From assembly GCA_002726945.1 (NCBI GenBank), contig PBTB01000129.1, positions 1 to 34,291 on the forward strand: a stretch of DNA of 34,291 nt, given 5' to 3'. The DNA comes from Deltaproteobacteria bacterium. GTDB taxonomy: Bacteria; SAR324; NAC60-12. Both the position numbers and the translations under genes were made by a program. Positions 1 to 15,461 of this stretch are shown here, in pieces (positions within the stretch are counted from its first letter, which is position 1; each line of letters begins with the position of its first letter). A model generated the notes under the pieces. It worked only from the letters and a program-made list of their open reading frames with translations. It did not search any database and was not told where the DNA came from.

Positions 1-145
1 AGATCTTGTTCAAAATAATCCCTGTCAAAAAACAGGGGAAATACAATCTAAATGTGCAATTGCAGGATTTAGGTAAAACAATGTAATTCCCAATTCCTGA
101 ATGTCCAGGACTTACGAAAATTTTTTCTAAAGCACTGATATTATG

Positions 146-304
146 ATAGTCGCCCTCTGGAGTGTTGTTCCTCTGAAAAATCGGGAACAATAACTGGAAA
201 CCGGGGGACACGCACCGGAAAACGCCGTCTCTTTGCAAAATCCCAACACTTGACAGGGTGACCCCTGCTGAGGACAGGCGTCAACACTCCAGAGGGGGGC
301 TGTC
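146..304 (+). repeat. Dispersed ~159-bp structured repeat, copy 1 (intact)
   Basis: Ends CTCTGGAGTGTTG ... CAACACTCCAGAG are perfect inverted complements; the interior (TGTTCCTCTGAAAAATCGGGAACAATAACTG...CCGGAAAACGCCGTCTCTTTGCAAAATCCCAACACTTGACAGGGTGA) matches three other copies in this window. Confidence 0.9.
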
Positions 305-375
305 CAGTTCTCAAACCCGAGTGCAACCCCGAACATTGCTAAAAACTCTCAAGTTCTTCACAGGGACGATATTTT

Positions 376-1146
376 CTAATCAACGCTAACCCCCTCCGCC
401 GTCAGTACGGGTTTTCCCAAATACTGAACCAACTCCTGAAACGCTCCCAGAATTTCCGAATCTGACTCGGGATAGCGTAACCGCAGGCTAACCTGTCCCC
501 AATGAGTTCCTGAGTGGGCGTAGATACCCAGACGTGCTTGCGGATAGTTTTCGTCAAACTGCCTCACGGCACCAGCAAGGTCGCCTTCCCGTGCCTCCAA
601 GCGGACTTCGGCTCGTTTTGTTGGAATGGCGGCTTGCACTCTCCCAAACAGTGGCAGAATTTGTGGAACCATCGCTTTGAGCATCTTTGGAAATCCGGGA
701 AACGCGAAAATGCCGGAGTGGTGGAACCCGGGGGCGCCATGGGGGTTCTTCAGCAATTCGCAGCCTTCCGGGAGCATCGTCATGTTCTGCCGACTCTCAT
801 TGAATTCTCCACCGTAACGTTCGGCCAGTAGCGCCCAGCAGTCCGGATGTGTGACCACCTGCACTCCCAGCGCCGCAGCAATGCCTTCACGGGTGCAGTC
901 GTCATGTGTGCCGCCGATGCCTCCGGAAACGCAGATCGGAAAGTGACTGGATCCCTTGAGTTGCTGAAGCCAGTGGGCGATCACCGCAATGTCATCCGGC
1001 AGGCTGAGTGCGACGTTGGCCGGGTGCCCCTGATCATGGAGCCAGTTGGTCAGCCATTGAGCGTTTTCATTACCCCGCTCTCCCAACACCAACTCATCCC
1101 CCACTGTTACCACCGCGGCACCAGCCTGATCCTCTTTTTTTGACAT
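376..1146 (-). CDS. CinA N-terminal / MoaB-Mog-like (molybdopterin-binding domain) protein
   Basis: MSKKEDQAGAAVVTVGDELVLGERGNENAQWLTNWL...CVSGGIGGTHDDCTREGIAAALG resembles CinA/MoCF domain motifs. Start placed at the ATG ending at 1146, because the longer ORF to 1299 runs into repeat copy 2. Confidence 0.8.
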   Translation of the reverse strand: MSKKEDQAGAAVVTVGDELVLGERGNENAQWLTNWLHDQGHPANVALSLPDDIAVIAHWLQQLKGSSHFPICVSGGIGGTHDDCTREGIAAALGVQVVTHPDCWALLAERYGGEFNESRQNMTMLPEGCELLKNPHGAPGFHHSGIFAFPGFPKMLKAMVPQILPLFGRVQAAIPTKRAEVRLEAREGDLAGAVRQFDENYPQARLGIYAHSGTHWGQVSLRLRYPESDSEILGAFQELVQYLGKPVLTAEGVSVD

Positions 1147-1159
1147 GTTCAATTGCTGG

Positions 1160-1318
1160 TCGTCTCCCCCTCGAGGGTTGTTCCTCTGAAAATCGGGACC
1201 AATAACTGTAAACCGGGGGGAACGTACCGGAAAACACCGTCTCTTTGCAAAATCCCAACACTTGACAGGGTGAATCTTGCTGAGGACAGGCACCAACACT
1301 CAAGAGGGGGGGCTATCC
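1160..1318 (+). repeat. Dispersed ~159-bp structured repeat, copy 2
   Basis: Near-identical to copy 1 across its length (GGTTGTTCCTCTGAAAATCGGGACCAATAACTGTAAACCGGGGGGAACGTACCGGAAAACACCGTCTCTTTGCAAAATCCCAACACTTGACAGGGTGAATCTTGCTGAGGACAGGCACCAACACTCAAGAGGGGG). Confidence 0.9.
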
Positions 1319-1513
1319 AGATATTAAATATCTCTAATTTCACCGAGAGTCAAGCCCGATTGCACCATCCTTGGCGACTCCCTCCAACTGGAACCTCCGA
1401 CCCTGCCGATTTCCCCGTTGACTTGCTCAAATCAAGGTGATACTCCTAAAGCCAAAGTACCGGGAGAAGAATCCCCATTGTCCTCAGAAAATTCACTTGA
1501 CACTCGAACGGGG

Positions 1514-1880
1514 ATAGTTCCCCTCTTGAGGGTTGTTCCTCTGAAAATCGGGAAAAATAACTGAAATCCGGAGCAACGCTCCGGAAAACGCAGTCTATCT
1601 TGTGCTTGGCAGAAAATTAGTCAACTACATGATATTTAATGGTATTCACCTATTTTCAAGAAACGAGGATTTTGGGGAAACTCATCAAAAATCCCATTTT
1701 TTGCTGATTTTGGCCATCTGAACACGGTATCAAACAAATCCTCATCCTGTTAAATTCAAGAAATATCGTTTAATATCAGAAATTTGTGTATTTTATTCCA
1801 AGCACTATCTTGCAAAATCCCAACCCTTTACAGGATGAATTTTGCTGAGGACAGGCACCAACACTCCAGAGGAGGACTAT
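1514..1880 (+). repeat. Dispersed ~159-bp structured repeat, copy 3, interrupted by a 202-bp insertion
   Basis: Left half 1514-1602 and right half 1805-1880 match copies 1 and 2. Removing 202 bp plus one 8-bp duplication restores a repeat of about 159 bp. Confidence 0.88.
1603..1804. mobile_element. 202-bp non-coding MITE-like element with 8-bp target site duplication
   Basis: Starts TGCTTGGCAGAAAAT; the reverse complement of its end is TGCTTGGAATAAAAT (13/15 terminal inverted repeat). Flanked on both sides by CTATCTTG (1595-1602 and 1805-1812). AT-rich interior without an ORF. Confidence 0.85.
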
Positions 1881-2050
1881 CGACTTTTTACGAGCCCATC
1901 AAATGTAAAAACCAGAAGACGTTATAGCACGGTTGCACCTCCAGAAGACCGCTTTGAAGCCAGCACTCACTTCGGTCATGGCCGGAGCTTTCATGTCCTT
2001 CAGGTTGACGTTCGCCTCCTGAATCCATAACCTCAACAAGGAGTATGATC

Positions 2051-3628
2051 ATGTCCAAAAAAACCACGATCCTTGCCATCGCACTTGCGTTTTGCACGTC
2101 ATTGTTCGCCGCGAATCCGGTGTCGGCAGAATCCACCCTCCGAGTGGTGATGCACTCGGATCTGAAGATCGTTGACCCGGTCTGGACCACCGCTTACATG
2201 TCCCGGAACTACGGATACATGGTGTATGATACACTGTTTGCACTTGACAGCAACCTGCACGTCCAGCCGCAAATGGTGGGGGATTATTCGGTGAGTGACA
2301 ACAAACTCACCTACACCATGACTTTGCGCGACGGACTGATGTTCCACGACGGCGCACCTGTCACTGCCGCAGATGCTGTGGCTTCTCTCAAACGTTGGGG
2401 GCAAAAAGACGGGATGGGGCAAATGTTGATGGAATACACTGCCGATTTGAGCGCAGTCGACGACAAGACTCTGAAATTGATCTTGAAAAAGCCGTTCGGG
2501 CTGGTGCTGGACGCGCTGGCGAAGCCGAGTTCCAACGTGCCCTTCATCATGCCCAAGCGTGTGGCGGACACTCCGGCGTCGGAACAGATCAAGGACCACA
2601 CGGGTTCCGGACCCTTCATCTTCAAGGAGGACGAGTGGAAACCAGGCGACCGCACGGTGTTCGTGAAGAACCCGAACTACAAGGCACGGAGTGAGCCGTC
2701 GAGTTGGATGTCAGGCAGCAAGGCCGTGAACGTGGACCGCGTGGAGTGGATTTCCATCAAGGACCACCAGACCGCCGTCAATGCCCTGCTCGCAGGCGAG
2801 ATTGATTACATGGAATCGGTCCCGCATGACCTGCTTCCGTTGCTGGACGCGGACCCGAATGTCCAGACAGCGGTGCTGAATCCGCTGGGGAATCAGTACA
2901 TGTACCGCATGAACCATCTGCATCCGCCGTTTGACGATGTCCGGGTTCGCCGTGCCGCCATGTGGGCTGTCAACCAGAAGGACTTTCTGCAAGGCGTGAT
3001 CGGCAATCCGAAGTACTACAAGGAATGCGCCGCCATGTTCTTCTGCGACACCCCGCTGGCCACGGACAAGGGAGCGGAGATCATGATGCGCTCGGACTAC
3101 GAAAAGTCGAAGGCGCTGCTGAAGGAAGCCGGCTACGACGGCACCCCGATTGTGCTGATGCACTCCACCGACCTGAATGTCCTTGCCAATCTGGCCCCCG
3201 TGGCCAAGCAGAATCTGGAACGCGGCGGTTTCAAGGTGGACATGCAGTCAATGGACTGGCAGACCCTTGTCTCCCGGCGTTCCAAGCAGGATCCTCCGGG
3301 GAAGGTCGGCTGGAACCTCTTCATGACTTCCTGGCAATCTCTGGACATCCTCAATCCTATCATGGCAGCAGGTTACCGGGCAAACTGTAACAAGGCGTGG
3401 TTCGGCTGGCCCTGCGACACGACAATGGAAGTTCTACGCAAGGCCTTTGCCGAGGAGCCGGATCCGGCACAACAGAAGGCCATCGCCGAGGCGATTCAGA
3501 TCCGTGCTATGGAGTACGGCACTCACGGTCATGGAGGTCAGTGGCTGGATGTCACGGCATGGCGCAAGGATCAGATTTCCAATGTCCCAAATGCTCCGCT
3601 TCCGGTGCAATGGAGCATTTCAAAGTAA
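2051..3628 (+). CDS. Peptide/oligopeptide ABC transporter substrate-binding protein (SBP_bac_5 family)
   Basis: Signal peptide MSKKTTILAIALAFCTSLFAANPVSAE; ESTLRVVMHSDLKIVDPVWTTAYMSRNYGYMVYDTL is SBP_bac_5-like; AAGGAG at 2038-2043 fits the ATG at 2051. Confidence 0.92.
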   Translation: MSKKTTILAIALAFCTSLFAANPVSAESTLRVVMHSDLKIVDPVWTTAYMSRNYGYMVYDTLFALDSNLHVQPQMVGDYSVSDNKLTYTMTLRDGLMFHDGAPVTAADAVASLKRWGQKDGMGQMLMEYTADLSAVDDKTLKLILKKPFGLVLDALAKPSSNVPFIMPKRVADTPASEQIKDHTGSGPFIFKEDEWKPGDRTVFVKNPNYKARSEPSSWMSGSKAVNVDRVEWISIKDHQTAVNALLAGEIDYMESVPHDLLPLLDADPNVQTAVLNPLGNQYMYRMNHLHPPFDDVRVRRAAMWAVNQKDFLQGVIGNPKYYKECAAMFFCDTPLATDKGAEIMMRSDYEKSKALLKEAGYDGTPIVLMHSTDLNVLANLAPVAKQNLERGGFKVDMQSMDWQTLVSRRSKQDPPGKVGWNLFMTSWQSLDILNPIMAAGYRANCNKAWFGWPCDTTMEVLRKAFAEEPDPAQQKAIAEAIQIRAMEYGTHGHGGQWLDVTAWRKDQISNVPNAPLPVQWSISK

Positions 3629-3666
3629 GGCGCTCCGGAACCTTAGCGAAGAGATCCCAACGGACC

Positions 3667-4608
3667 ATGCTTGGTTTTCTCGTCCGTCGTATTTTGGCCA
3701 CCATTCCGGTCTTGGCAATGGTGGCCCTCTTCGTGTTTTTCATGCTGCGACTCACGCCGGGAGACCCTGCTGCGATTCTGGCGGGAGACAACGGCGAGCC
3801 GCATCAAATCGAGGCCATCCGCGAAGCACTGGGCCTGAACGAACCCATCCTCACCCAACTCACCATCTGGCTGGGCAACATCCTGCAAGGTGATTTGGGC
3901 GAGTCGTTCTTCTTCAACAAGAAGGTGACGGAACTGATCGCCATGCGGGTGGACGCGACCCTCTCGCTGGCCATCGTGACGCTGATCATCACACTGGCGG
4001 TAGCGATTCCACTTGGAGTGTTGGCGGCTTACCGACACGGCTCGTGGGTGGACCGGTTGGTGATGGGCTTTTCCGTGCTGGGATTCTCCGTCCCCATTTT
4101 TGTGTTGGGATATTTTCTCATCTTCATCTTCTCGGTGAAGCTCAACTGGTTTCCGGTGCAGGGCTTCAAGAGCATCAGTGATGGCTTCTGGCCGTTCCTG
4201 CACCACCTGATTCTGCCTAGCCTCACCCTCAGCGTCATTTACATCGCACTCATTGCCCGCATGACCCGCGCCAGCGTCATCGAGGTGCTGAACGAGGACT
4301 ACATCCGCACCGCCTACGCCAAGGGTTTGAGCAACATGGTGGTGTTGATGCGTCATGCCTTGCACAATGCGGCGGTCCCGATCGTCACCATCACTGGAAT
4401 TGGCGTCGCCCTGCTGATCGGCGGGGTGGTCGTGACCGAGAGCGTGTACAACATTCCGGGCTTGGGGCGGCTCACCGTGGACGCTGTGCTGGGTCGGGAC
4501 TACCCTACGATTCAAGCATTGATCCTTGTGTTCTCCTGTGTTTACGTCGTGATCAACCTGTTGATTGACCTCTCCTACACCCTGCTCGATCCGAGGATCC
4601 GGTATTGA
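3667..4608 (+). CDS. Peptide ABC transporter permease (DppB-like)
   Basis: MLGFLVRRILATIPVLAMVALFVFFMLRLTPGDPAAILAGD, with C-terminal GLGRLTVDAVLGRDYPTIQALILVFSCVYVVINLLIDLSYTLLDPRIRY typical of DppB/OppB. Confidence 0.93.
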   Translation: MLGFLVRRILATIPVLAMVALFVFFMLRLTPGDPAAILAGDNGEPHQIEAIREALGLNEPILTQLTIWLGNILQGDLGESFFFNKKVTELIAMRVDATLSLAIVTLIITLAVAIPLGVLAAYRHGSWVDRLVMGFSVLGFSVPIFVLGYFLIFIFSVKLNWFPVQGFKSISDGFWPFLHHLILPSLTLSVIYIALIARMTRASVIEVLNEDYIRTAYAKGLSNMVVLMRHALHNAAVPIVTITGIGVALLIGGVVVTESVYNIPGLGRLTVDAVLGRDYPTIQALILVFSCVYVVINLLIDLSYTLLDPRIRY

Positions 4609-5555
4609 GTGCCCCTGAGGAATCCCCCATAGCACTGGAGGTGGACAGCGCGGCCAGTGCTGCGGCAGTCTCCCGGCCCCGGACCGTCTTGCAGATGCTG
4701 GTCCGCAACCCCAGCGTCTGTTTTGGCGGTGTGGTGCTGGTGGTGATGCTGCTGACGGCTCTGCTGGCACCGTTTTTGGGTACGATCGACCCCAGCAACA
4801 TTGATCCAATTTACCGCAACAAGGTTCCGGGCACGGAGCGCATGCTGCGGCTGGACGACGGCAGTGAGGTGCCGATCACCCACTGGATGGGAACCGACAT
4901 GCTCGGACGCGACGTGTACAGCCGCGTGATTTACGGCAGCCAGATTTCACTTGTGGTCGGATTGGCGGTGGCGATTTTGAGCATCGCCGTCGGACTCACC
5001 ATCGGCTTGGTTTCCGGGTACATCCGTTGGCTGGATGGCATTGTCATGCGCATCATGGACGGACTGATGGCGATTCCAGGAATCCTGCTCGCGATTGCGC
5101 TGATGTCCTTGTTCAACGCGGGTTTGGGCACGGTGATTTTTGCGATCTTCATTCCGGAAATCCCACGGGTGGTGCGGCTCGTGCGCTCCATCGTGCTTTC
5201 GATCCGGGAGGAACCCTATGTGGAGGCAGCGATTTCCGTGGGCACCTCGGTGCCGCTGATCCTCATCCGGCATGTGCTGCCCAACACCATCGCCCCACTC
5301 ATCGTGCAGGGGACCTACATCTGTGCGTCCGCAATTCTGGTGGAAGCGATCCTCAGTTTTTTGGGGGTGGGCATCCCCCCGGAGATTCCAACCTGGGGCA
5401 ACATCATGGCCGAGGGCCGGATGCTGTTTCGCGTCTTCCCGCACAATTTGCTCTACCCCGGCATCTTTCTCGCCTTCACCATCCTCGCAGTCAACGTGCT
5501 AGGCGATGGTCTGCGGGACACCCTCGATCCGCGCATGGCGAAGCGGTTGGGGTAA
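4605..5555 (+). CDS. Peptide ABC transporter permease (DppC-like)
   Basis: TTG start overlaps the previous stop by 4 bp; HWMGTDMLGRDVYSRVIYGSQISL and GDGLRDTLDPRMAKRLG are DppC/OppC motifs. Confidence 0.93.
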   Translation: MSAPEESPIALEVDSAASAAAVSRPRTVLQMLVRNPSVCFGGVVLVVMLLTALLAPFLGTIDPSNIDPIYRNKVPGTERMLRLDDGSEVPITHWMGTDMLGRDVYSRVIYGSQISLVVGLAVAILSIAVGLTIGLVSGYIRWLDGIVMRIMDGLMAIPGILLAIALMSLFNAGLGTVIFAIFIPEIPRVVRLVRSIVLSIREEPYVEAAISVGTSVPLILIRHVLPNTIAPLIVQGTYICASAILVEAILSFLGVGIPPEIPTWGNIMAEGRMLFRVFPHNLLYPGIFLAFTILAVNVLGDGLRDTLDPRMAKRLG

Positions 5556-5559
5556 AAGG

Positions 5560-7182
5560 ATGCAACCTGTCCTGAAAATCGACAACCTCAGTGTGCAACT
5601 GCCCAAGGGCGCGGATCGGCAGCATGCCCTTGAGTACGTCAGTTTTGAGGTGCATCCCGGCGAAATCCTCTGCCTCGTCGGGGAGTCCGGTTCCGGAAAA
5701 TCGGTGACGGGCCTGAGCGTGATGGGCTTGCTGCCCAAGGGGCAGCTCACGCCCGTTTCCGGACAAATCCTGCTACAGGACGAGAATCTGCTCGAAGCCA
5801 GCGACGAGCGGCTGCGGGATTTGCGCTGCACCGGAATGTCGATGATCTTTCAGGAGCCGATGACGGCGCTCAACCCCGTGATGCGCTGCGGGGATCAGAT
5901 TGACGAGGTGCTGCGCACGCACATCCGGCTTGCTCCAAAAGAACGCACCCAGCGCATCCTCCGGATCATGGAGGAAGTCCGGTTGCCGGAGCCGAAGCGT
6001 CTGATCAACACCTACCCGCATCAACTCTCCGGAGGCCAGCGCCAGCGCATCATGATCGCGATGGCGCTCGTCCTCGAACCCGTGCTGCTGATTGCGGATG
6101 AGCCGACCACTGCCCTCGACGTGACCACGCAGGCGAGCATCCTCCAACTCATCCGGGACATCCAGCGGGATCACCAGACCGGGGTCTTGTTCATCACCCA
6201 TGACTTTGGAGTGGTTGCGGAAATTGCTGACCGTGTGGCCGTGATGCAATGGGGCAAGGTGGTTGAGTTTGGGGAAGCCAAGCAGGTGCTGTCCAATCCG
6301 CAACACGCCTACACGCGCATGTTGATCCGCTCGGTGCCGAGCATGACACCCAGCCAACGGGAACGGGATGCGTCCGCGCAGGTGGTGCTGAACACCTCCG
6401 GACTTTCCAAGACTTACAGCGAACGTGCATTCTTCCGAAGCACCCGCACCGTTCATGCCGTGCAGAAGGTGGACCTTGAGGTGCGGCGTGGGGAAACCTT
6501 GGGCATCGTTGGCGAATCCGGTTCCGGAAAAACCACGGTCGCCCGCTGCATCGCCAGACTGACCGACCCCTCCAGCGGCGAGATCTTTTTGGATGGCAAA
6601 GAAATCGGACGGCTCCGAACAGGACAACTGCGCCCCTACCGCCGTCGCATCCAAATCATTTTTCAGGATCCATACCGCTCCCTTAATCCGCGTCGGGTGG
6701 TGGGCGACTCCATTATCGAGGGGGCGACCAACTACGGACTCCCACGCGACAAAGCTTTGGAGCGGGCACGGTCCCTGATGGAATTGGTGCAACTCGACCC
6801 CAACGTGCTGGACCGCTTTCCACACCAGTTTTCCGGAGGACAGCGCCAGCGCATCTGCATCGCCCGCGCACTCACGATGGAACCGGAGGTCTTGATTGCA
6901 GACGAAGCGGTTTCCGCACTCGATGTTTCGGTGCAGGCCCAAGTTCTCAAACTGCTTGACGATGTCCGGAAGCACTTCAACCTCGCCCTGCTCTTCATTA
7001 CACACGACCTGCGCGTGGCCGCGCAAATCTGCGACACCATGGCCGTGATGAGCCAAAGCAAGGTTGTCGAGTACGGACTCACTCGCGACGTGTTCACCAA
7101 CCCTCAGCACGAGTACACCCAATCCCTGCTCAACGCCGCTCCCGGCAAGGGCTGGGACTTCGGCGCGTTCCTCGCGCCCTGA
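5560..7182 (+). CDS. Fused dipeptide ABC transporter ATP-binding protein (DppD-DppF/YejF/GsiA-like)
   Basis: Two Walker A motifs ([16 protein letters not shown]), two [16 protein letters not shown] signatures, two Walker B motifs ([24 protein letters not shown]). Confidence 0.94.
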
Positions 7183-7222
7183 GCGAAAACCGCAGTCACG
7201 TTCAATCTCCCACTGAGAAAAC

Positions 7223-7261
7223 CCTGGATAACAGTGTTCGGTTCTTAACGTCTTTTACTAT
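7223..7261 (-). mobile_element. Relic terminus related to the ~115-bp TA-type insertion at 15299-15413
   Basis: Minus strand ATAGTAAAAGACGTTAAGAACCGAACACTGTTATCCAGG against ATAGTAAAATCCGTTAAAAATCGAACACTATGATCTAGG in the insertion of repeat copy 4 (32/39 by manual alignment). Confidence 0.65.
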
Positions 7262-7919
7262 CAGTCCGTCCGAGCGTCTGTCCGGTCTTGGCCCAGTCGT
7301 CGAGGAAGGCTTTCAGCCCCTTGTCCGTGAGCGGGTGGTTGAAGAGTTGGAAGATGACCTTCGGGGGCGCAGTGAAGACATCGGAACCGATTTTTGCGGC
7401 AGCGAGGACGTGTTGCGGGCCGCGCACCGAGGCGGTGAGGATTTGTGTGTCAAAGCCGTAGTTGTCGTAAATCTCGCGGATGTCGGCGATGAGTTCCATG
7501 CCGTCCTGGCCGAGGTCGTCCAACCGTCCCACAAACGGGCTGATGTAGCGGGCACCCGCCTTGGCCGCGAGCAGGGCTTGGTTGGCGCTGAAGCAGAGGG
7601 TGACATTGACCGGATGTCTGTCCTGACTGAGCGTTTTGCAGGCCCGGATGCCTGCCGGAGTGAGTGGCACCTTGACGACCATGTTGTCCGCGATTTCCCG
7701 CAACCAGCGTCCTTCTCGGACCATCCCTTCCGCCTCGGTGGAAACGGTTTCTCCAGAAATGTCGCCGGGACAGATCGAGCAGATTTCCACCAGCACCTCC
7801 CGGATGTCGCGCCCGGACTTGGCGATGAGGCTGGGGTTGGTGGTCACACCATCAATGATACCCAAATCTTGGAGGACTTGGATTTCCTGGACCTCGGCGG
7901 TGTCGGCAAAGATTTTCAT
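7245..7919 (-). CDS. Transaldolase, small type (TalC / fructose-6-phosphate aldolase-like)
   Basis: [38 protein letters not shown]...VKVPLTPAG...[33 protein letters not shown]. Confidence 0.95.
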
Positions 7920-7984
7920 GAGTTGTTTGGGTTGGGGTTAGGAGCTTATGCATGAAAAAAGTCTCCTAGAATCGTCTTTCGTTT

Positions 7985-9520
7985 TCAAGAGGAATTGGCG
8001 CTTTGCTCAAACTGCGGGCAAAAACCGCCGTCTGCTTGCGGGACGAAGCGCAAAATGCGGTCAATGCAGGTGAGGGTATCCTCGGAGGCGTGGGTGATGT
8101 ACAGCACCTGCGTCGCGGTTTCGTGGCCGATGCGGTCCACAAGGCGCAGGATGCGCTCGCGATTTTGCGGATCCAACCCTTGACACGGCTCGTCAAGGAT
8201 GAGCAACTCCGGATGCTTGACCAGCGCCCGCACGAGCAGGAGCAGCCTCTGCTGACCGTAGGAGAGCTTTTGGTACTCGCCAGCGGCCAAGGTTTCCAGC
8301 CCAAGCGCGGCGACCCACGCTTCGGCTTGGGCGCGTTGGACGGGTGAGGCTTGGCGGTAAAGTCCGATGGAGTCGAAGAATCCGGAAAGGACAACGTGGC
8401 GGCCTTGGATTTCGTTGCGGTACTTCACCTGAAATTCCGAGGACACCAAGCCGATGCGCTGCTTGAGATCCCAGATGCTTTCACCAGAACCACGTTTGTG
8501 GCCGAAAATCCGGATGTCATTGGAGTACGCCTGCAAGTGCTCCCCGCAGATGAGGTTGAGCAGTGTTGACTTGCCTGCACCGTTCGGTCCCACCACCCTC
8601 CAGTTCTCTTTGGAGTGCACCGTCCAGTCCAGCCCGTTCAGCACCACCTTTTCGCCATAGCGCACGGTCACGTTGCACATCACCACCGGAGGTTCGGCGA
8701 GCGGGGATGCGGTTTCCGGCAGAGGCAGCGGGCGTTTCAATTTTGCATGAGCAGAACCCTGCACAAAAGTGGGATCGTACAAACCCCGCAGCACCTTTTC
8801 GCACAGCACCTCCTGCTGGGAACCCTGCTTGAAAATGCGCCCCGCCTTGAGCGCAAGCACATGCGAGATTTCCGGGACCACCTCGTCTGTACGATGCGTC
8901 ACCAGCAGCACGGGCAGACCGTTTTGGATGAGGGAACCGAGGGTCTGCTTGAGCCACGCGGTGCTGTTGGCGTCAAGTCCGTCAAAGGGTTCGTCGAACA
9001 GCAGCAACGCCGGATCGGCAAACAACGCCCGCAGCAGCAGCGTCTTGCGCAGTTCGCCATTCGAGAACTGCCGCAGCGGGCACTCCAGCAAATCGTCCAT
9101 CTGGAGCTGCGCCGCAAGCAGTTCCAAGCGCTGCGGACCGGGGTTCGATTCCTCAGTGATCAATTCCCGGCAGGTGAGGCCCGCCTGCTCCTTGCCGCTG
9201 TAGTCCTCCCAGCGCTCCTTGCGCTCCTCGCGGGCGATGAGTTGCTTTTGTTGATGGAGCGAGACATAGCCAATGCGCTCCGGCTTGAGCAATTCCGGAT
9301 GCCGGCGGATGGTGCCCTGAAAGTATGGACGTCGTTGGAGCAGCACCTGCACGAGCATTGTTTTTCCCGCCCCGTTGGGACCAATCAGCGCCCAGCTTTC
9401 GCCAGTCCGGAAGGTCCAGTTCAGTTTCGATAAAACCTCGTTTGCACCGAGCCGGGTGGAGACGTTTTCCAATGCAAGCAGGGCCATTCCAGTTTGGAGG
9501 ACAGACGCAGAATCGGGCAT
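7985..9520 (-). CDS. Tandem-domain ABC ATPase (ModF/PhrA-like)
   Basis: Two Walker A motifs (GPNGAGKTML, GPNGAGKSTLLNL), Walker B LLLFDEPFDGLD and LLILDEPCQGLD, signatures FSNGELRK and LSYGQQRL. ATG at 9520 lies 6 nt downstream of the preceding stop. Confidence 0.85.
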   Translation of the reverse strand: MPDSASVLQTGMALLALENVSTRLGANEVLSKLNWTFRTGESWALIGPNGAGKTMLVQVLLQRRPYFQGTIRRHPELLKPERIGYVSLHQQKQLIAREERKERWEDYSGKEQAGLTCRELITEESNPGPQRLELLAAQLQMDDLLECPLRQFSNGELRKTLLLRALFADPALLLFDEPFDGLDANSTAWLKQTLGSLIQNGLPVLLVTHRTDEVVPEISHVLALKAGRIFKQGSQQEVLCEKVLRGLYDPTFVQGSAHAKLKRPLPLPETASPLAEPPVVMCNVTVRYGEKVVLNGLDWTVHSKENWRVVGPNGAGKSTLLNLICGEHLQAYSNDIRIFGHKRGSGESIWDLKQRIGLVSSEFQVKYRNEIQGRHVVLSGFFDSIGLYRQASPVQRAQAEAWVAALGLETLAAGEYQKLSYGQQRLLLLVRALVKHPELLILDEPCQGLDPQNRERILRLVDRIGHETATQVLYITHASEDTLTCIDRILRFVPQADGGFCPQFEQSANSS

Positions 9521-9525
9521 AGCGG

Positions 9526-11358
9526 TCAAACAACCGGGGCAAGTTGGGACGCTTGTGGAGTTTCCGGAGCGGGACTCCCGTTTTGCAGCCGCCACATTTG
9601 CTGATAGTCGCCGGGTCGCCGGACGAGTTCGGCGTGGGTGCCCTGATCAACAATACGCCCTTCGTCAAGGACGAGGATATGATCGGCCCGCTCCATCGAG
9701 GTGACGCGATGCGAGACGATGAGCAGCGCCTGCACGAGTGCTTTACCGTCGGCGTCAGGACGCAGCAATTGGTGGACTTCGCGGAGCAGGAAACGCTCGG
9801 TTTCGTAATCCACAGCGGAAAGCACGTTGTCAAGGATGAGCAGATCGCAGGGTTCGGTTATCGCACGGGCGAGGCTGATGCGCTGCTTCTGCCCTCCGGA
9901 GAGCATGATGCCCTTCTCGCCGACCAGCGTTTCGGTTTGCTTGGGGAAACGCTGCACCTCCTCCTTCAGCGCGGCGGTGTGGAGCACGCGGACGAGAGTT
10001 TTCTCTGAACTGCCGTCTGCTTCCGGAAGCGTGAAGCGGATGTTTTCGCGCACGGTGTCCGAGAACAGAAACGGCTCCTGCGTGACCGTCCGGATGCTGC
10101 GGCGCACATCGGAAAAACTCAATTCGTCAAGCTTGCGGTCACCGAGTTTCACACTTCCTGGAGGCGGGACGAGGTAGCGGTTCAGGCAGTTGACGAGCGT
10201 GCTTTTTCCAGAGCCGATGCGCCCGAGGATGCCGATGACCTGTCCGGGCTGGATGGAGAACGAGACCGCCTGCAACACGTCCGAGGAGCCGTCCGGAAAG
10301 CGGTAGCTGAGATTTTGCACGGTCAGTCCACCTTTGGAAAACAGCGCACGTGATTCGACTTCGGGCAGGTCCGGAGTTGCTGAGAGTGGTGTTTTTTCGG
10401 CAAGCACGGTGCGCACGCTCTCCAGCCCGACCAGGCCCTGCTGGATCATCGTCGTCACCCACCCCAGCGCCATCAACGGCATCGTCAGTAAGACGGCGTA
10501 GGTGATGAAGGCGGTGAGTTGGCCGAGCGAGAGGTTTTCCTGAATCACCAGCATCCCGCCCACGAGCAGGATGAGCAGTTTGAGGAGGTGTTCGAGGTTG
10601 GAGAGGATCGGCATCATGAAGGAGCGCACCCACGAGATGCGTAACGCCCGTGTGACCATCTCTTCGCTTTCCACACCAAAGCGACCCAAAGCCCACGGGG
10701 GCATCTCGTAACTCTTGATGACGTCGATACCGGAGAGCGAAGCCGCCGAGAACGCAGAGAGCCGCTGCAACGCCTGCATCCGTGCCCGCATGTTGCGGAC
10801 CAGCACACGCATTCCCAGTCGGACGATGGCGAAGACCACGATGATCGGCAGGATGCAGTAGAGCGTGAGCTTGGGAGAAAGCTGCCACATCTTCAGCGGC
10901 GTGAGCGAGAGCATCGTGGCGATATTGAACGCCTGCATCATTGCAAACCCGTAGATCATGCGGATGCCCATGATGTCGTTGTTGACCTTGGAGATGATAC
11001 CGCCGGAGGGGTTTTTGTCGTAGTAATCCTTCTGGAGCGCCATCAGCTTGTGGAACATGTCGTTCTTGATCTGACACTCAATGGCGCGTCCGGGGTTGAA
11101 GAAGAGGATGCGCGAGAGCGTGCGCACCACGATCATGCTCACGGCAAGGGCCAGCATGATCAGCAGGTTGTCGGTGAGCCGTTGCGGCTGGTTGCTCAGG
11201 TTCTCCCCCAGCAGGTCAATGCTGACCTGGATGTAGTGGGGAATGCTGACGGCGATCCAGTTGGTACAAATGATCGCCACCACGCCCAAGCTGTAGGAAA
11301 GCCAATGCTGGCGCAGGTAGTGAAGCAGCAGTGGGAGGGTGCGGTCAGCCGGGGGCAC
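9526..11358 (-). CDS. ABC exporter (ATP-binding/permease fusion, MsbA/LmrA-like)
   Basis: N-terminal membrane domain followed by GRIGSGKSTLVN, LSGGQKQRISLARAI and LLILDNVLSAVD. Confidence 0.92.
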   Translation of the reverse strand: MPPADRTLPLLLHYLRQHWLSYSLGVVAIICTNWIAVSIPHYIQVSIDLLGENLSNQPQRLTDNLLIMLALAVSMIVVRTLSRILFFNPGRAIECQIKNDMFHKLMALQKDYYDKNPSGGIISKVNNDIMGIRMIYGFAMMQAFNIATMLSLTPLKMWQLSPKLTLYCILPIIVVFAIVRLGMRVLVRNMRARMQALQRLSAFSAASLSGIDVIKSYEMPPWALGRFGVESEEMVTRALRISWVRSFMMPILSNLEHLLKLLILLVGGMLVIQENLSLGQLTAFITYAVLLTMPLMALGWVTTMIQQGLVGLESVRTVLAEKTPLSATPDLPEVESRALFSKGGLTVQNLSYRFPDGSSDVLQAVSFSIQPGQVIGILGRIGSGKSTLVNCLNRYLVPPPGSVKLGDRKLDELSFSDVRRSIRTVTQEPFLFSDTVRENIRFTLPEADGSSEKTLVRVLHTAALKEEVQRFPKQTETLVGEKGIMLSGGQKQRISLARAITEPCDLLILDNVLSAVDYETERFLLREVHQLLRPDADGKALVQALLIVSHRVTSMERADHILVLDEGRIVDQGTHAELVRRPGDYQQMWRLQNGSPAPETPQASQLAPVV

Positions 11359-11411
11359 AAAGGGTGAGGAGTGAAGGGTGAAAGAAGCCGTGAGCTAAGC
11401 AGGTGTGGAAA

Positions 11412-11876
11412 TCATGCGTACTCGGCCTGAAGTTCGCTGCCCATGCGAATGAGGTTGTGCATCTTGCGCTTCCAGACGATGCCCTCGCTGGCCCAGCGGA
11501 TGGAGATGCGGACGTATTCGCGCCCGAGGCCGAGCTTGCGGCCCGTCGTGAGCAGGAAGTCGATTTCGTTGGTCCCCAGCACGTTGTCCGCGCAGACGAT
11601 GAGCAACAGTTCAATGAAGATCTGCACCTCCACTTGGCGGGTGCCCTCCGGAAAGCGGTCGAGCTTGGGGAGTTTCTGATCCTTGACCGCTTGAATGATC
11701 TTGCTCTCCTCCGCCTTGGATTCGAGGAATCCCAAGGCCCGCTCCATGTACTGGATCTCTTCGGGGGCGATGTTGCCATCGGCGGTGATCGCGCTGCAAA
11801 TTGCAATCGCCAGCCAGTGTTTCTGGGTTTCGTTGAGCGTGTCAGGTTCCAGACCTGTTGGCAGTTGCGTACTCAT
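11412..11876 (-). CDS. TerB-like family protein
   Basis: LAIAICSAITADGNIAPEEIQYMERALGFL resembles the TerB helix pattern with an acidic ADGxIxxxE motif. Confidence 0.6.
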   Translation of the reverse strand: MSTQLPTGLEPDTLNETQKHWLAIAICSAITADGNIAPEEIQYMERALGFLESKAEESKIIQAVKDQKLPKLDRFPEGTRQVEVQIFIELLLIVCADNVLGTNEIDFLLTTGRKLGLGREYVRISIRWASEGIVWKRKMHNLIRMGSELQAEYA

Positions 11877-11891
11877 GAGCTTTTCCTTGTG

Positions 11892-12635
11892 TCAGGCGGC
11901 AGCCGCCGGAAGTTCCCCGGCCAATTCCCGGAGTTGGGTTTCCACCTCGTTCATCAGGTCCGCCCGCTGGCGGGAGGAGTAGCACGATGCGTCCACCGGA
12001 CGCCCGATGTGCAGTTCCACCTCCTGATTCCAGTGAAACTGCAGCGTGTCCGCAGGCATGACCACGCCTGTGCCCCGGATGCCGACCGGCACGATGGACG
12101 CGCCCGCTTGCTGGGCCATCATGAAACCGCCCTTCTTGAGCGGCAACATTTCGCCGCCACGAGCGCGGGTGCCTTCCGGGAAGATCATCACGGCGATTCC
12201 ACTCTCCATCCGCGCCATGGCTTCCTTGATGGAGGCCGCTGCTCCAGCAGGGTTCTTGCGATCCACCTTGATGAACTCTCCGGCTTCAAGCCCAAGCTTC
12301 CAGATGGGCAGCTTGAACAGTTCAGCCTTTGCGACCATCCGGAGTCCGTGAGGGAACGCCATGAAGAGCAGGGGGATGTCATAATAGCTGCGATGGTTGC
12401 TCATGACAACCCACGGGTGTCCGGGGGTGAGTTCCACGCCAAAGGGATTCTTGATGCGGAAGCGTACCTTGAGGAGCGCCAGCAGGTCGCGTGACCAGTC
12501 ACAGAGGATTTGGTCGGCCGCTTCCCGTGTCAGCCGCTTGCGCTGGATGGACACGAGCGTGGCCACCACATACCTCAAGGTGGTCCAGTTCACGCGCAAG
12601 AGAACGCCAAGGCTTGACAGGGTGCGTATGATCAT
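11892..12635 (-). CDS. 1-acyl-sn-glycerol-3-phosphate acyltransferase family (PlsC-like)
   Basis: NHRSYYDIPLL (HX4D-type box as NHRSYYD), FPEGTRARGGEMLPLKKGGFMMAQQAGASIVPVGIRGT. ATG at 12635 preferred; the upstream extension reads through a repeat-like hairpin region. Confidence 0.85.
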   Translation of the reverse strand: MIIRTLSSLGVLLRVNWTTLRYVVATLVSIQRKRLTREAADQILCDWSRDLLALLKVRFRIKNPFGVELTPGHPWVVMSNHRSYYDIPLLFMAFPHGLRMVAKAELFKLPIWKLGLEAGEFIKVDRKNPAGAAASIKEAMARMESGIAVMIFPEGTRARGGEMLPLKKGGFMMAQQAGASIVPVGIRGTGVVMPADTLQFHWNQEVELHIGRPVDASCYSSRQRADLMNEVETQLRELAGELPAAAA

Positions 12636-12715
12636 CAATCCTTTACAAGGTTTGCCTCCGGGCGTGGCTTGTTGGCCCTCGGAGTTGAGTTCAATCTCTT
12701 TCGGGTCTGATTCCC

Positions 12716-12729
12716 CGCAGCTTGCTGCG
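12716..12729. repeat. Short hairpin CGCAGCTTGCTGCG
   Basis: CGCAG-CTTG-CTGCG inverted repeat in the context ATTCCCCGCAGCTTGCTGCGTC. Confidence 0.7.
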
Positions 12730-12770
12730 TCAAGAAATTCGCGGGAGGTCGCTCTCAATGGAGAAGCATT

Positions 12771-12808
12771 CAGGAGTCAGGACCCCCCATTTGGACTCCT
12801 GACTCCTG
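12771..12808. repeat. 12-bp perfect inverted repeat (CAGGAGTCAGGA / TCCTGACTCCTG)
   Basis: Arms 12771-12782 and 12797-12808 are exact complements with a 14-nt loop. Confidence 0.9.
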
Positions 12809-12824
12809 CATTCTGGATTCTCAA

Positions 12825-12856
12825 GACCCCGCTGCTCTGCGGCGGGGTCGTTTATT
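12825..12856 (+). terminator. GC-rich hairpin followed by a short T-rich run, terminator-like
   Basis: GACCCCGC (12825-12832) / GCGGGGTC (12842-12849), followed by GTTTATT. Confidence 0.5.
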
Positions 12857-12868
12857 AAAAAACCTAAC

Positions 12869-13780
12869 TTGGAGCCGCATATTCCGCAAGTTTTCCAGTC
12901 CGGTCCTGCCGAGGCCAGCGAGGCGTACTCGGGCTTCCGGACGCTCTCTGTGAAGCCAGCGCAGTTGCAGGAACTGGAGAGCACCGGGGCTCTGCGCTTG
13001 GACCCCAACCCTCCACTGCAACCCAACGAAGGGGTGCTGCTCCACTCCGATCAACCCGATGCCGAAGCCCTCACGCTCTATGAGGCCACGTCCGGACAAC
13101 TCCGCAAGCTGGAGGGCAGTCCCACGCTCTGGGGGATGGAGGCACGGAACCCGGAGCAGTGCTTTGCCCTGCACCTCCTGATTGATCCCAGCATCTCGAT
13201 CGTCACGCTGAGCGGCAAGGCCGGAACCGGAAAGACACTGCTGGCCTTGGCTTCCGGACTGCATTCGATGCTCATGGAGCAGCGCTACTCCCGGATGCTC
13301 GTCTCCCGCCCGATCTTCCCGATGGGACGCGACCTGGGCTACCTGCCGGGAGAAGTGCAGGACAAGCTGGCACCGTGGATGCAACCCATTTTCGACAACC
13401 TCGAATTGCTCATCTACCAGCGCGGGGGGGACCGCAGGGGGCGGCAGGGGTATCAGGAACTGATCGAGCAGGGCTTGCTGGTCGTGGAACCCCTCACCTA
13501 CATCCGGGGCCGCAGCATCCCCAACCAGTACATGATTGTGGACGAGGCGCAAAACCTCACCCCCCACGAGATGAAGACCATTGTCACGCGGGTGGGCGAG
13601 GGCACGAAGATCGTCTTGACGGGCGACCCGCACCAGATTGACAACCCCTATGTGAACTCGAATTCGAACGGACTCAGCACCCTCGTTGAACGCTTCAAGT
13701 CGCACCCGATTGCCGGGCACGTCACCTTGTGTCAAGGCGAACGCTCAGAGCTTGCCGAGTTGGCTGCAAACCTTTTCTGA
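12869..13780 (+). CDS. PhoH-family ATPase (C-terminal PhoH domain of the PIN-PhoH type, PIN domain absent)
   Basis: YSGFRTLSV linker, [99 protein letters not shown]. Only a TTG start is available. Confidence 0.88.
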   Translation: [303 protein letters not shown]

Positions 13781-13891
13781 ACCCCTCAGCCCCTTTTGCT
13801 GAAAGCCGCTTGGAAAAGCGAAGCGTTCATGCTTGTATACGGAGTTTGACAAGACACCCAACCTGCATGGAATCTTCACAAACACTCTAAC

Positions 13892-15133
13892 ATGGACTGG
13901 ATTCAAAACCCACCGCCTTCCTCGGAACTTGCGGATCGCGACATCAAGCAGACCGGAACTCACCTTGCTGGCCAGCGCATCGCCCTGCTGATCACGGGCA
14001 GCATTGCGGCCTACCGCACTCCGGACCTGATCCGCGACCTGCGCCGCGAGGGGGCCGAGGTGTTCGTGTACGCCTCCCGTGAGGCACTGTCCTACGTCAC
14101 CAAGCAGACCTTGGAGTGGACCTCGCTGCATCCGGTCTGCGATTCCTTCACAGGCGAGGCCGAGCACCTTTCCGAATCCCACCCGTTTGACGCCTACCTC
14201 GTCGCCCCGGCTTCCTACAACACGATCAACAAGGCGGCACTCGGCATCGCCGATTCCGTAGTGACCACCACTCTCGCCTCGGCACTCGGACGGCAGGAAA
14301 TGGAACAGGCGGTGGTGCTGTTCGCCCCGGCAATGCATGGAACGCTGCACAACCGCATCCTCTCCGAATCGCTTGCACGCTTGCAGGCACTTGGAGCCAC
14401 CCTCATCCCGCCCCGGCAGGAGCAGGGGAAAAACCACCTTGCCCCGCTCGAAACGCTGGTCGCCGCCACCATCCGCGCCCTCAGTGGCCAGCCCTTGCGC
14501 GGAAAAAAAATCATCGTCACCGGAGGCCCCACCCCGGTGCCCATTGACCATGTGCGACGCATCACCACCGTGTTCACCGGTGGCTTGGGTATCGAACTCA
14601 CCTGCGAGGCGTGGCTGCGTGGCGCGAGCAGCGAACTCGTGCTGGGCAAGGGATCCGCCATCGCTCCGGAGTATTTTCCGACCCACAACATCTCGACCTA
14701 CAACGACTATGTACGCGTGTTGCAGGAACGACTGGACGCCGGAGGCATGGACTGGGGTATCTTTACGGCGGCGGTGGCGGATTACCAACCCAAGACGGTG
14801 TATGACGGGAAACTCCCCAGTGGGCAGAATTTGAACTTGCCGCTGGTTGCCACCCCAAAGGTCGTGCGGATGATCCGGGAACGCTATCCCAAGCTCGGCA
14901 TGGTCGCCTTCAAGTACGAGGAGGGTCACAGCCACGAACACTTCATGGACACCGCCAAGAACTTCCTCGCCCAAGGGGGCTTCCAACTCGTGGTCGCCAA
15001 CCGTGGAGAGGAATGCTCCGAGGCCGGGCAGCACATCGCGTGGTTGATCTCCCCGGATGCCCAACCCACCCGGCACCTTGGCAAACCCGCCATCGCTGCT
15101 GCCCTGCTCGACTGGATCGCAGCGCGTTCGTGA
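13892..15133 (+). CDS. CoaBC-like flavoprotein (phosphopantothenoylcysteine decarboxylase / phosphopantothenate-cysteine ligase), divergent
   Basis: IALLITGSIAAYRTPDLIRDLRREGAEVFVYAS, APASYNTINKAALGIADSVVTTTLA, APAMHGTLHN, IIVTGGPTPVPIDHVRRI, FTAAVADYQPKTVYDGKLPS. Confidence 0.85.
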   Translation: MDWIQNPPPSSELADRDIKQTGTHLAGQRIALLITGSIAAYRTPDLIRDLRREGAEVFVYASREALSYVTKQTLEWTSLHPVCDSFTGEAEHLSESHPFDAYLVAPASYNTINKAALGIADSVVTTTLASALGRQEMEQAVVLFAPAMHGTLHNRILSESLARLQALGATLIPPRQEQGKNHLAPLETLVAATIRALSGQPLRGKKIIVTGGPTPVPIDHVRRITTVFTGGLGIELTCEAWLRGASSELVLGKGSAIAPEYFPTHNISTYNDYVRVLQERLDAGGMDWGIFTAAVADYQPKTVYDGKLPSGQNLNLPLVATPKVVRMIRERYPKLGMVAFKYEEGHSHEHFMDTAKNFLAQGGFQLVVANRGEECSEAGQHIAWLISPDAQPTRHLGKPAIAAALLDWIAARS

Positions 15134-15183
15134 GGGCGTGTGTCCTGCTGGACACACTTCGTTTTTCCCAACTTCAGAAACCG

Positions 15184-15461
15184 GATAGTCCCCCTCTTGA
15201 GTGTTGGTGCCTGTCCTCAGCAAAATTCGTCCCCTGTAAAGTTTGGGATTTTGCAAAGAGACGGCGTTTTCCGGTACGTTTCCCCCGGTTTACAGTTATG
15301 GTAAAAGCTACTAGTTATAGGACAAATTTAGACTGGGATACAAACAGTCAAACAATTGATATTAAAGAATATTTACCTAGATCATAGTGTTCGATTTTTA
15401 ACGGATTTTACTATATTGTTCCCGATTTTCAGAGGAACAACACTCAAGAGGGAGACTATCC
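15184..15461 (-). repeat. Dispersed ~159-bp structured repeat, copy 4, inverted and interrupted by an AT-rich insertion of about 115 bp
   Basis: GGATAGTCCCCCTCTTGAGTGTTG ... CAACACTCAAGAGGGAGACTATCC. The interior reads as the reverse complement of copies 1-3 on both sides of the insertion. Confidence 0.9.
15299..15413. mobile_element. ~115-bp MITE-like insertion with TA (or TAT) duplication
   Basis: Uninterrupted copies read CAGTTATTGTTCCC. Here the sequence is CAGTTA[TGGTAAAAGC...GGATTTTACTA]TATTGTTCCC. Short terminal inverted repeat TGGTAAAA / TAGTAAAA. Confidence 0.75.

Follow-up and report, generated by a model that had tools for sequence, protein, structure and literature searches.

A decayed 204-bp MITE copy nested in another repeat of a SAR324 bacterium belongs to a multicopy family with 6-bp target duplications

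The window, i.e. the whole stretch of 34,291 nt that was analyzed, is contig PBTB01000129.1 of a Deltaproteobacteria bacterium (GTDB lineage SAR324, NAC60-12). Near its left end are three copies of a host repeat of ~159 bp, at positions 145–304, at about 1159–1317 and, in interrupted form, at the location given in Table 1. A further copy lies in inverted orientation at positions 15183–15302. The repeat is present at at least 40 places genome-wide. It has inverted ends of ~23 nt (GATAGTC...CTCTGGAG) and is MITE-like as well. A 15.3 kb region of the window (positions 74–15366) is found twice in the assembly. The other occurrence is at G000:C140:26320–41612 and displays 99.95% identity, with the match ending at window position 74. 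This duplicated region is a strain variant or a product of redundant binning.

The third copy of the host repeat is split by an insert that starts with GTGC and ends with GCAC. The insert is AT-rich, with a GC content of 0.32 compared with about 0.5–0.6 in the surroundings, and it carries near-perfect terminal inverted repeats, the right one being altered to GTGCTTGGAATAAAA. An initial annotation had described a 202-bp segment here. Its AT-richness and near-perfect inverted repeats are borne out, but the length is 204 bp, with one more base at each end. Over the first 193 bp, its identity to the 205-bp consensus of the family (see below) is about 94%. The insert is an old, decayed copy of a small non-coding mobile element.

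The initial annotation also placed the insert within the host repeat, and this nesting holds. Deletion of the insert together with one TATCTT leaves a 158-bp repeat, which aligns to copy 1 with 132 of 156 matches and to copy 2 with 135 of 155. In other copies of the host repeat the sequence at the insertion point is mostly GTCTCTTTGC, GTCTCCTTGC or GTCTATTTGC; the re-joined third copy has GTCTATCTTGC, which is one base longer. At two other loci the ~159-bp repeat adjoins a broken copy of the 205-bp element (L021, G000:C153:1–220, and L058, G000:C35, about 150–245). This suggests that nesting of the two repeats has happened in the reverse order too.

Table 1. Coordinates of the nested element, its ends and its flanking sequences in the window.
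Feature	Position	Strand	Remarks
Whole decayed MITE copy	1602–1805	+	204 bp
Left terminal inverted repeat	1602–1616	+	GTGCTTGGCAGAAAA (consensus GTGCTTGGCCGAAAA)
Right terminal inverted repeat	1791–1805	-	GTGCTTGGAATAAAA, decayed
Left target-site duplication	1596–1601	.	TATCTT; identical to 1806–1811; 6 bp set by three other complete copies
Right target-site duplication	1806–1811	.	TATCTT
Third copy of the ~159-bp host repeat, split by the MITE	1515–1882	+	Re-joined flanks align to the other two copies

The host draft genome (2.60 Mb in 156 contigs, 89.5% complete) was searched by BLAST with window positions 1595–1812, a check that the initial annotation had proposed. Further copies were found: there are 23 significant places, a number far above chance. 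With duplicates removed and contig ends paired, these represent about 18–20 insertions of the 205-bp family, about five of which are truncated or decayed. The C140 occurrence was not counted as a separate copy since it lies in the duplicated region described above. Many of the places are contig ends, which fits a repeat at which short-read assembly breaks. The 205-bp MITE accounts for many of the contig breaks in the host draft.

The better-preserved copies are 205 bp long, start with GTGCTTGGCCGAAAA, end with TTTTCGGCCAAGCAC and have a perfect 15-bp inverted repeat. In the consensus an imperfect palindrome extends about 70 bp inward, and over this distance one half aligns, imperfectly, with the inverted other half. 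When the 15-bp ends are set aside, the remaining inverted alignment scores 34, compared with a mean of 21 and a maximum of 40 for shuffled sequences, and is thus by itself not above all shuffles. The whole consensus folds far better than its shuffles (z of -4.9 as DNA and -4.3 as RNA), to which the perfect ends contribute. A 167-bp variant is found at L054 1501–1667 (G000:C14:13311–13477), where the middle is replaced by a two-hairpin segment (ACTACCCCGCAGCAAGCGGCGGGGTAGT, GATTCGCAGCAAGCTGCGGTGAATT). This variant resembles palindrome-associated elements of IS200/IS605 type.

That the segment has no open reading frame, as had been stated, agrees with the analysis, since the window copy contains none longer than 39 aa. 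The 205-bp consensus shows one stop-free frame of 56 codons on the minus strand, a length reached by 17% of shuffles, and this frame has no match in Pfam, NCBIfam or plasmid sequences. The longest frames of the element gave no transposase match. A reading of the 56-codon frame as a transposase remnant is unsupported, as the frame is within the shuffle range and has no family match.

Duplications of exactly 6 bp, measured between GTGC and GCAC, flank all four complete full-type copies in the host genome, the window copy included: TATCTT in the window, TAGCTA in C80, and TAACTA in both C38 and C147. Three pairs of contig ends have a 6-mer in common, i.e. TAGTTA (C92/C16), GAGTTA (C85/C125) and TAAATT (C123/C56). 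The pairs were matched by this 6-mer and not by reads, hence C85/C125 and C123/C56 are weaker evidence on duplication length; C92/C16 is the exception, as it is additionally matched by a restored open reading frame. Over 18 sites in the host genome the target is TANNTA, with T at the first position in 15, A at the second in 17, T at the fifth in 17 and A at the sixth in 14. The flanks of the C14 variant match over 2 bp only and show no clean duplication.

The MITE copy at the end of C92 and the start of C16 is inserted in a gene that encodes an amidase domain. When the two contigs are re-joined, the open reading frame is re-opened and a Pfam Amidase match spans the site (E-value = 1.8e-23). 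The insertion probably leaves this gene inactive in the strain that was assembled.

The end sequence was also scanned across 84,980 species genomes. This gave scattered single matches, plus four contig ends in the MAG Nitrococcus sp. 48_S62. At least three types of repeat in this MAG, termed A, B and C, have GTGCTTGGCCGAAAA or GTGCCCGRCCGAAAA ends, and a second genome of the Nitrococcus order has one repeat type with such ends. All 19 target 6-mers in these two genomes begin with TA, and their fifth base is T. Contigs C33 and C158 of the Nitrococcus MAG have the 6-bp duplication TATTTA in common, and re-joining them re-opens a YrhK-domain open reading frame. Types A, B and C are like the host element in the type of their ends, in the TANNTA target and, where the contig ends can be paired (type A), in the 6-bp duplication; however their interiors have no recognizable similarity to it. 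Four contigs of G058 (L195, L196, L198 and L202) carry another multicopy Nitrococcus repeat, which begins near TACTAAGGAATACGCT and has an apparently partly inverted end; in C160 it adjoins a type C element.

A complete MITE of 135 bp is found at positions 193–327 of L209, a metagenomic viral contig from IMG/VR. It has GTGCCTGAACGAAAA / GTGCTTGACCGAAAA ends and a 6-bp duplication (TATCTA) like the host element, but differs in its interior and its length. Three other IMG/VR contigs (L210, L211 and L212) stop shortly past TANNTA plus GTGCCTGACCGAAAA. In G009, a genome from the host's own GTDB family, TAGTTA followed by GTGCTTGGCAGAAAA is found at a contig end, and the bases beyond it match an isolated end remnant in host contig C85 over about 55 bp.

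Other matches to the end pattern were discarded. Those in Poribacteria, Methyloceanibacter, Idiomarina, Chryseobacterium and others are single ends without a partner, and the Poribacteria match (L109) is inside a long open reading frame. The single end matches in the Nitrococcus order (54 genomes) and in its phylum (399 genomes) lack an inverted partner flanked by a 6-bp duplication; the one formal pair, at L145 (GCGCGG, 69 bp), is without a TANNTA target and was taken as chance. End matches in IMG/VR without TANNTA were rejected, as was one on a microvirus-like contig (L171). A wider end pattern gave no pairs, and comparison of the element and its relatives with plasmids and phages gave no useful match.

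An autonomous element with these ends was not found in the host genome or in 41 genomes of its order, drafts which break at these repeats. The same was the case in the 54 Nitrococcus-order genomes, the 399 of its phylum and IMG/VR, where drafts break likewise. A missing transposase is thus weak evidence, as drafts break inside the elements. According to the initial annotation, its reading would fall if there were neither other copies nor a transposon with matching ends. Copies and same-ended elements do exist; a full-length transposon was not found.

The duplication had been reported as the 8-bp sequence CTATCTTG, which would place the element among insertion sequence families that duplicate 8 bp, e.g. 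IS66, IS1595, ISL3 and IS6. Taken alone, the window copy gives this picture, as CTATCTTG flanks TGCTTGG...CCAAGCA. This is due to the base before TATCTT being C, which is also the last base of the element, and the base after it being G, which is also the first. In the other complete full-type copies however the duplication is 6 bp only, and there the outer G and C belong to the element. The 8-bp reading is hence hardly tenable, and families with a duplication of 8 bp (8–9 bp), i.e. IS66, IS1595, ISL3, IS6 and IS1, are excluded by the 6-bp length and were the wrong place to look. The IS630/Tc1-mariner elements duplicate only the TA dinucleotide and are excluded as well, since six bases rather than two are duplicated here. 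It is also very improbable that the family is a structural or regulatory repeat, i.e. an RNA gene or a protein-binding repeat that was spread by recombination and is not a transposable element. Strong fold-back and high copy number fit such a repeat, but precise target duplications at independent sites do not; nor do the insertion that disrupts a gene and the elements of distant bacteria that combine the same ends with unrelated interiors, and Rfam gave no convincing match for the element.

A further alternative refines the MITE reading and does not contradict it. The element may derive from a catalogued insertion sequence family that duplicates about 6 bp, for which IS1634-type or ISDol1-type elements are candidates, with the parent copy merely missing from the draft assembly. 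The chances of this are about even. In the host genome, in Nitrococcus and in G094, contig breaks fall within the elements, so one would expect the bins to lack a full-length parent; the sampled contigs of G009 are all >7 kb, and a short insertion sequence contig is therefore unlikely among them. Against such a parent, the draft host genome has no match to DDE_Tnp_1 (PF01609), and a search of the open literature with the end sequences gave only unrelated papers. A PF01609 locus in Nitrococcus was rejected as the parent as its ends do not match. It is possible, although rather unlikely, that the elements of distant bacteria that have GTGCYYGRMCGAAAA ends and duplicate 6 bp at TANNTA constitute an undescribed insertion sequence family with its own transposase. 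The signature of GTGCYYGRMCGAAAA ends, TANNTA target and 6-bp duplication is common to small elements in unrelated bacteria, and can be used to search for the transposase in long-read genomes.

We consider the 204-bp insert to be a member of a genuine MITE family, with a probability of roughly 0.93, presumably mobilized in trans by a transposase encoded elsewhere. The initial annotation had likewise proposed a nested, non-coding, MITE-like element dependent on a distant transposase; the copies, the exact duplications and the gene-restoring empty sites support this, and the transposase itself was not found. Past mobility, the ends, the duplication length and the target preference are established. 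The family is short (204–205 bp) and AT-rich (GC 0.32 in the window copy), has 15-bp inverted repeats that are perfect in the consensus and no transposase gene, and occupies many unrelated sites; the four complete full-type copies have target-site duplications of 6 bp, the C14 variant a match of 2 bp only. Lengths of MITEs range from about 50 to 1000 bp (PMC4596501).

By analogy with MITEs that share their ends with an insertion sequence of the same genome (PMC4596501), the transposase would be supplied in trans, probably as a DDE-type enzyme. It would bind the shared ends, cut or copy the element and insert it at TANNTA with a 6-base stagger, and repair of the single-stranded gaps would then create the 6-bp duplications. 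The element may have arisen by internal deletion or by end capture, the source being an autonomous insertion sequence whose ends it shares. In the open literature and collections searched, the family is apparently undescribed as a named family; it is ordinary in kind.

Bacterial MITEs have been reviewed (PMC10969869) and include BrickBuilt of Porphyromonas gingivalis (PMC4596501). Like these, the host element is short, AT-rich and multicopy, and has terminal inverted repeats and target duplications but no transposase gene. In P. gingivalis, the ends of BrickBuilt and of further MITEs are also those of insertion sequences of the same genome, whereas no parent was found for the host element. In addition, BrickBuilt duplications vary in length, whereas those of the host element are a constant 6 bp at a TANNTA target.
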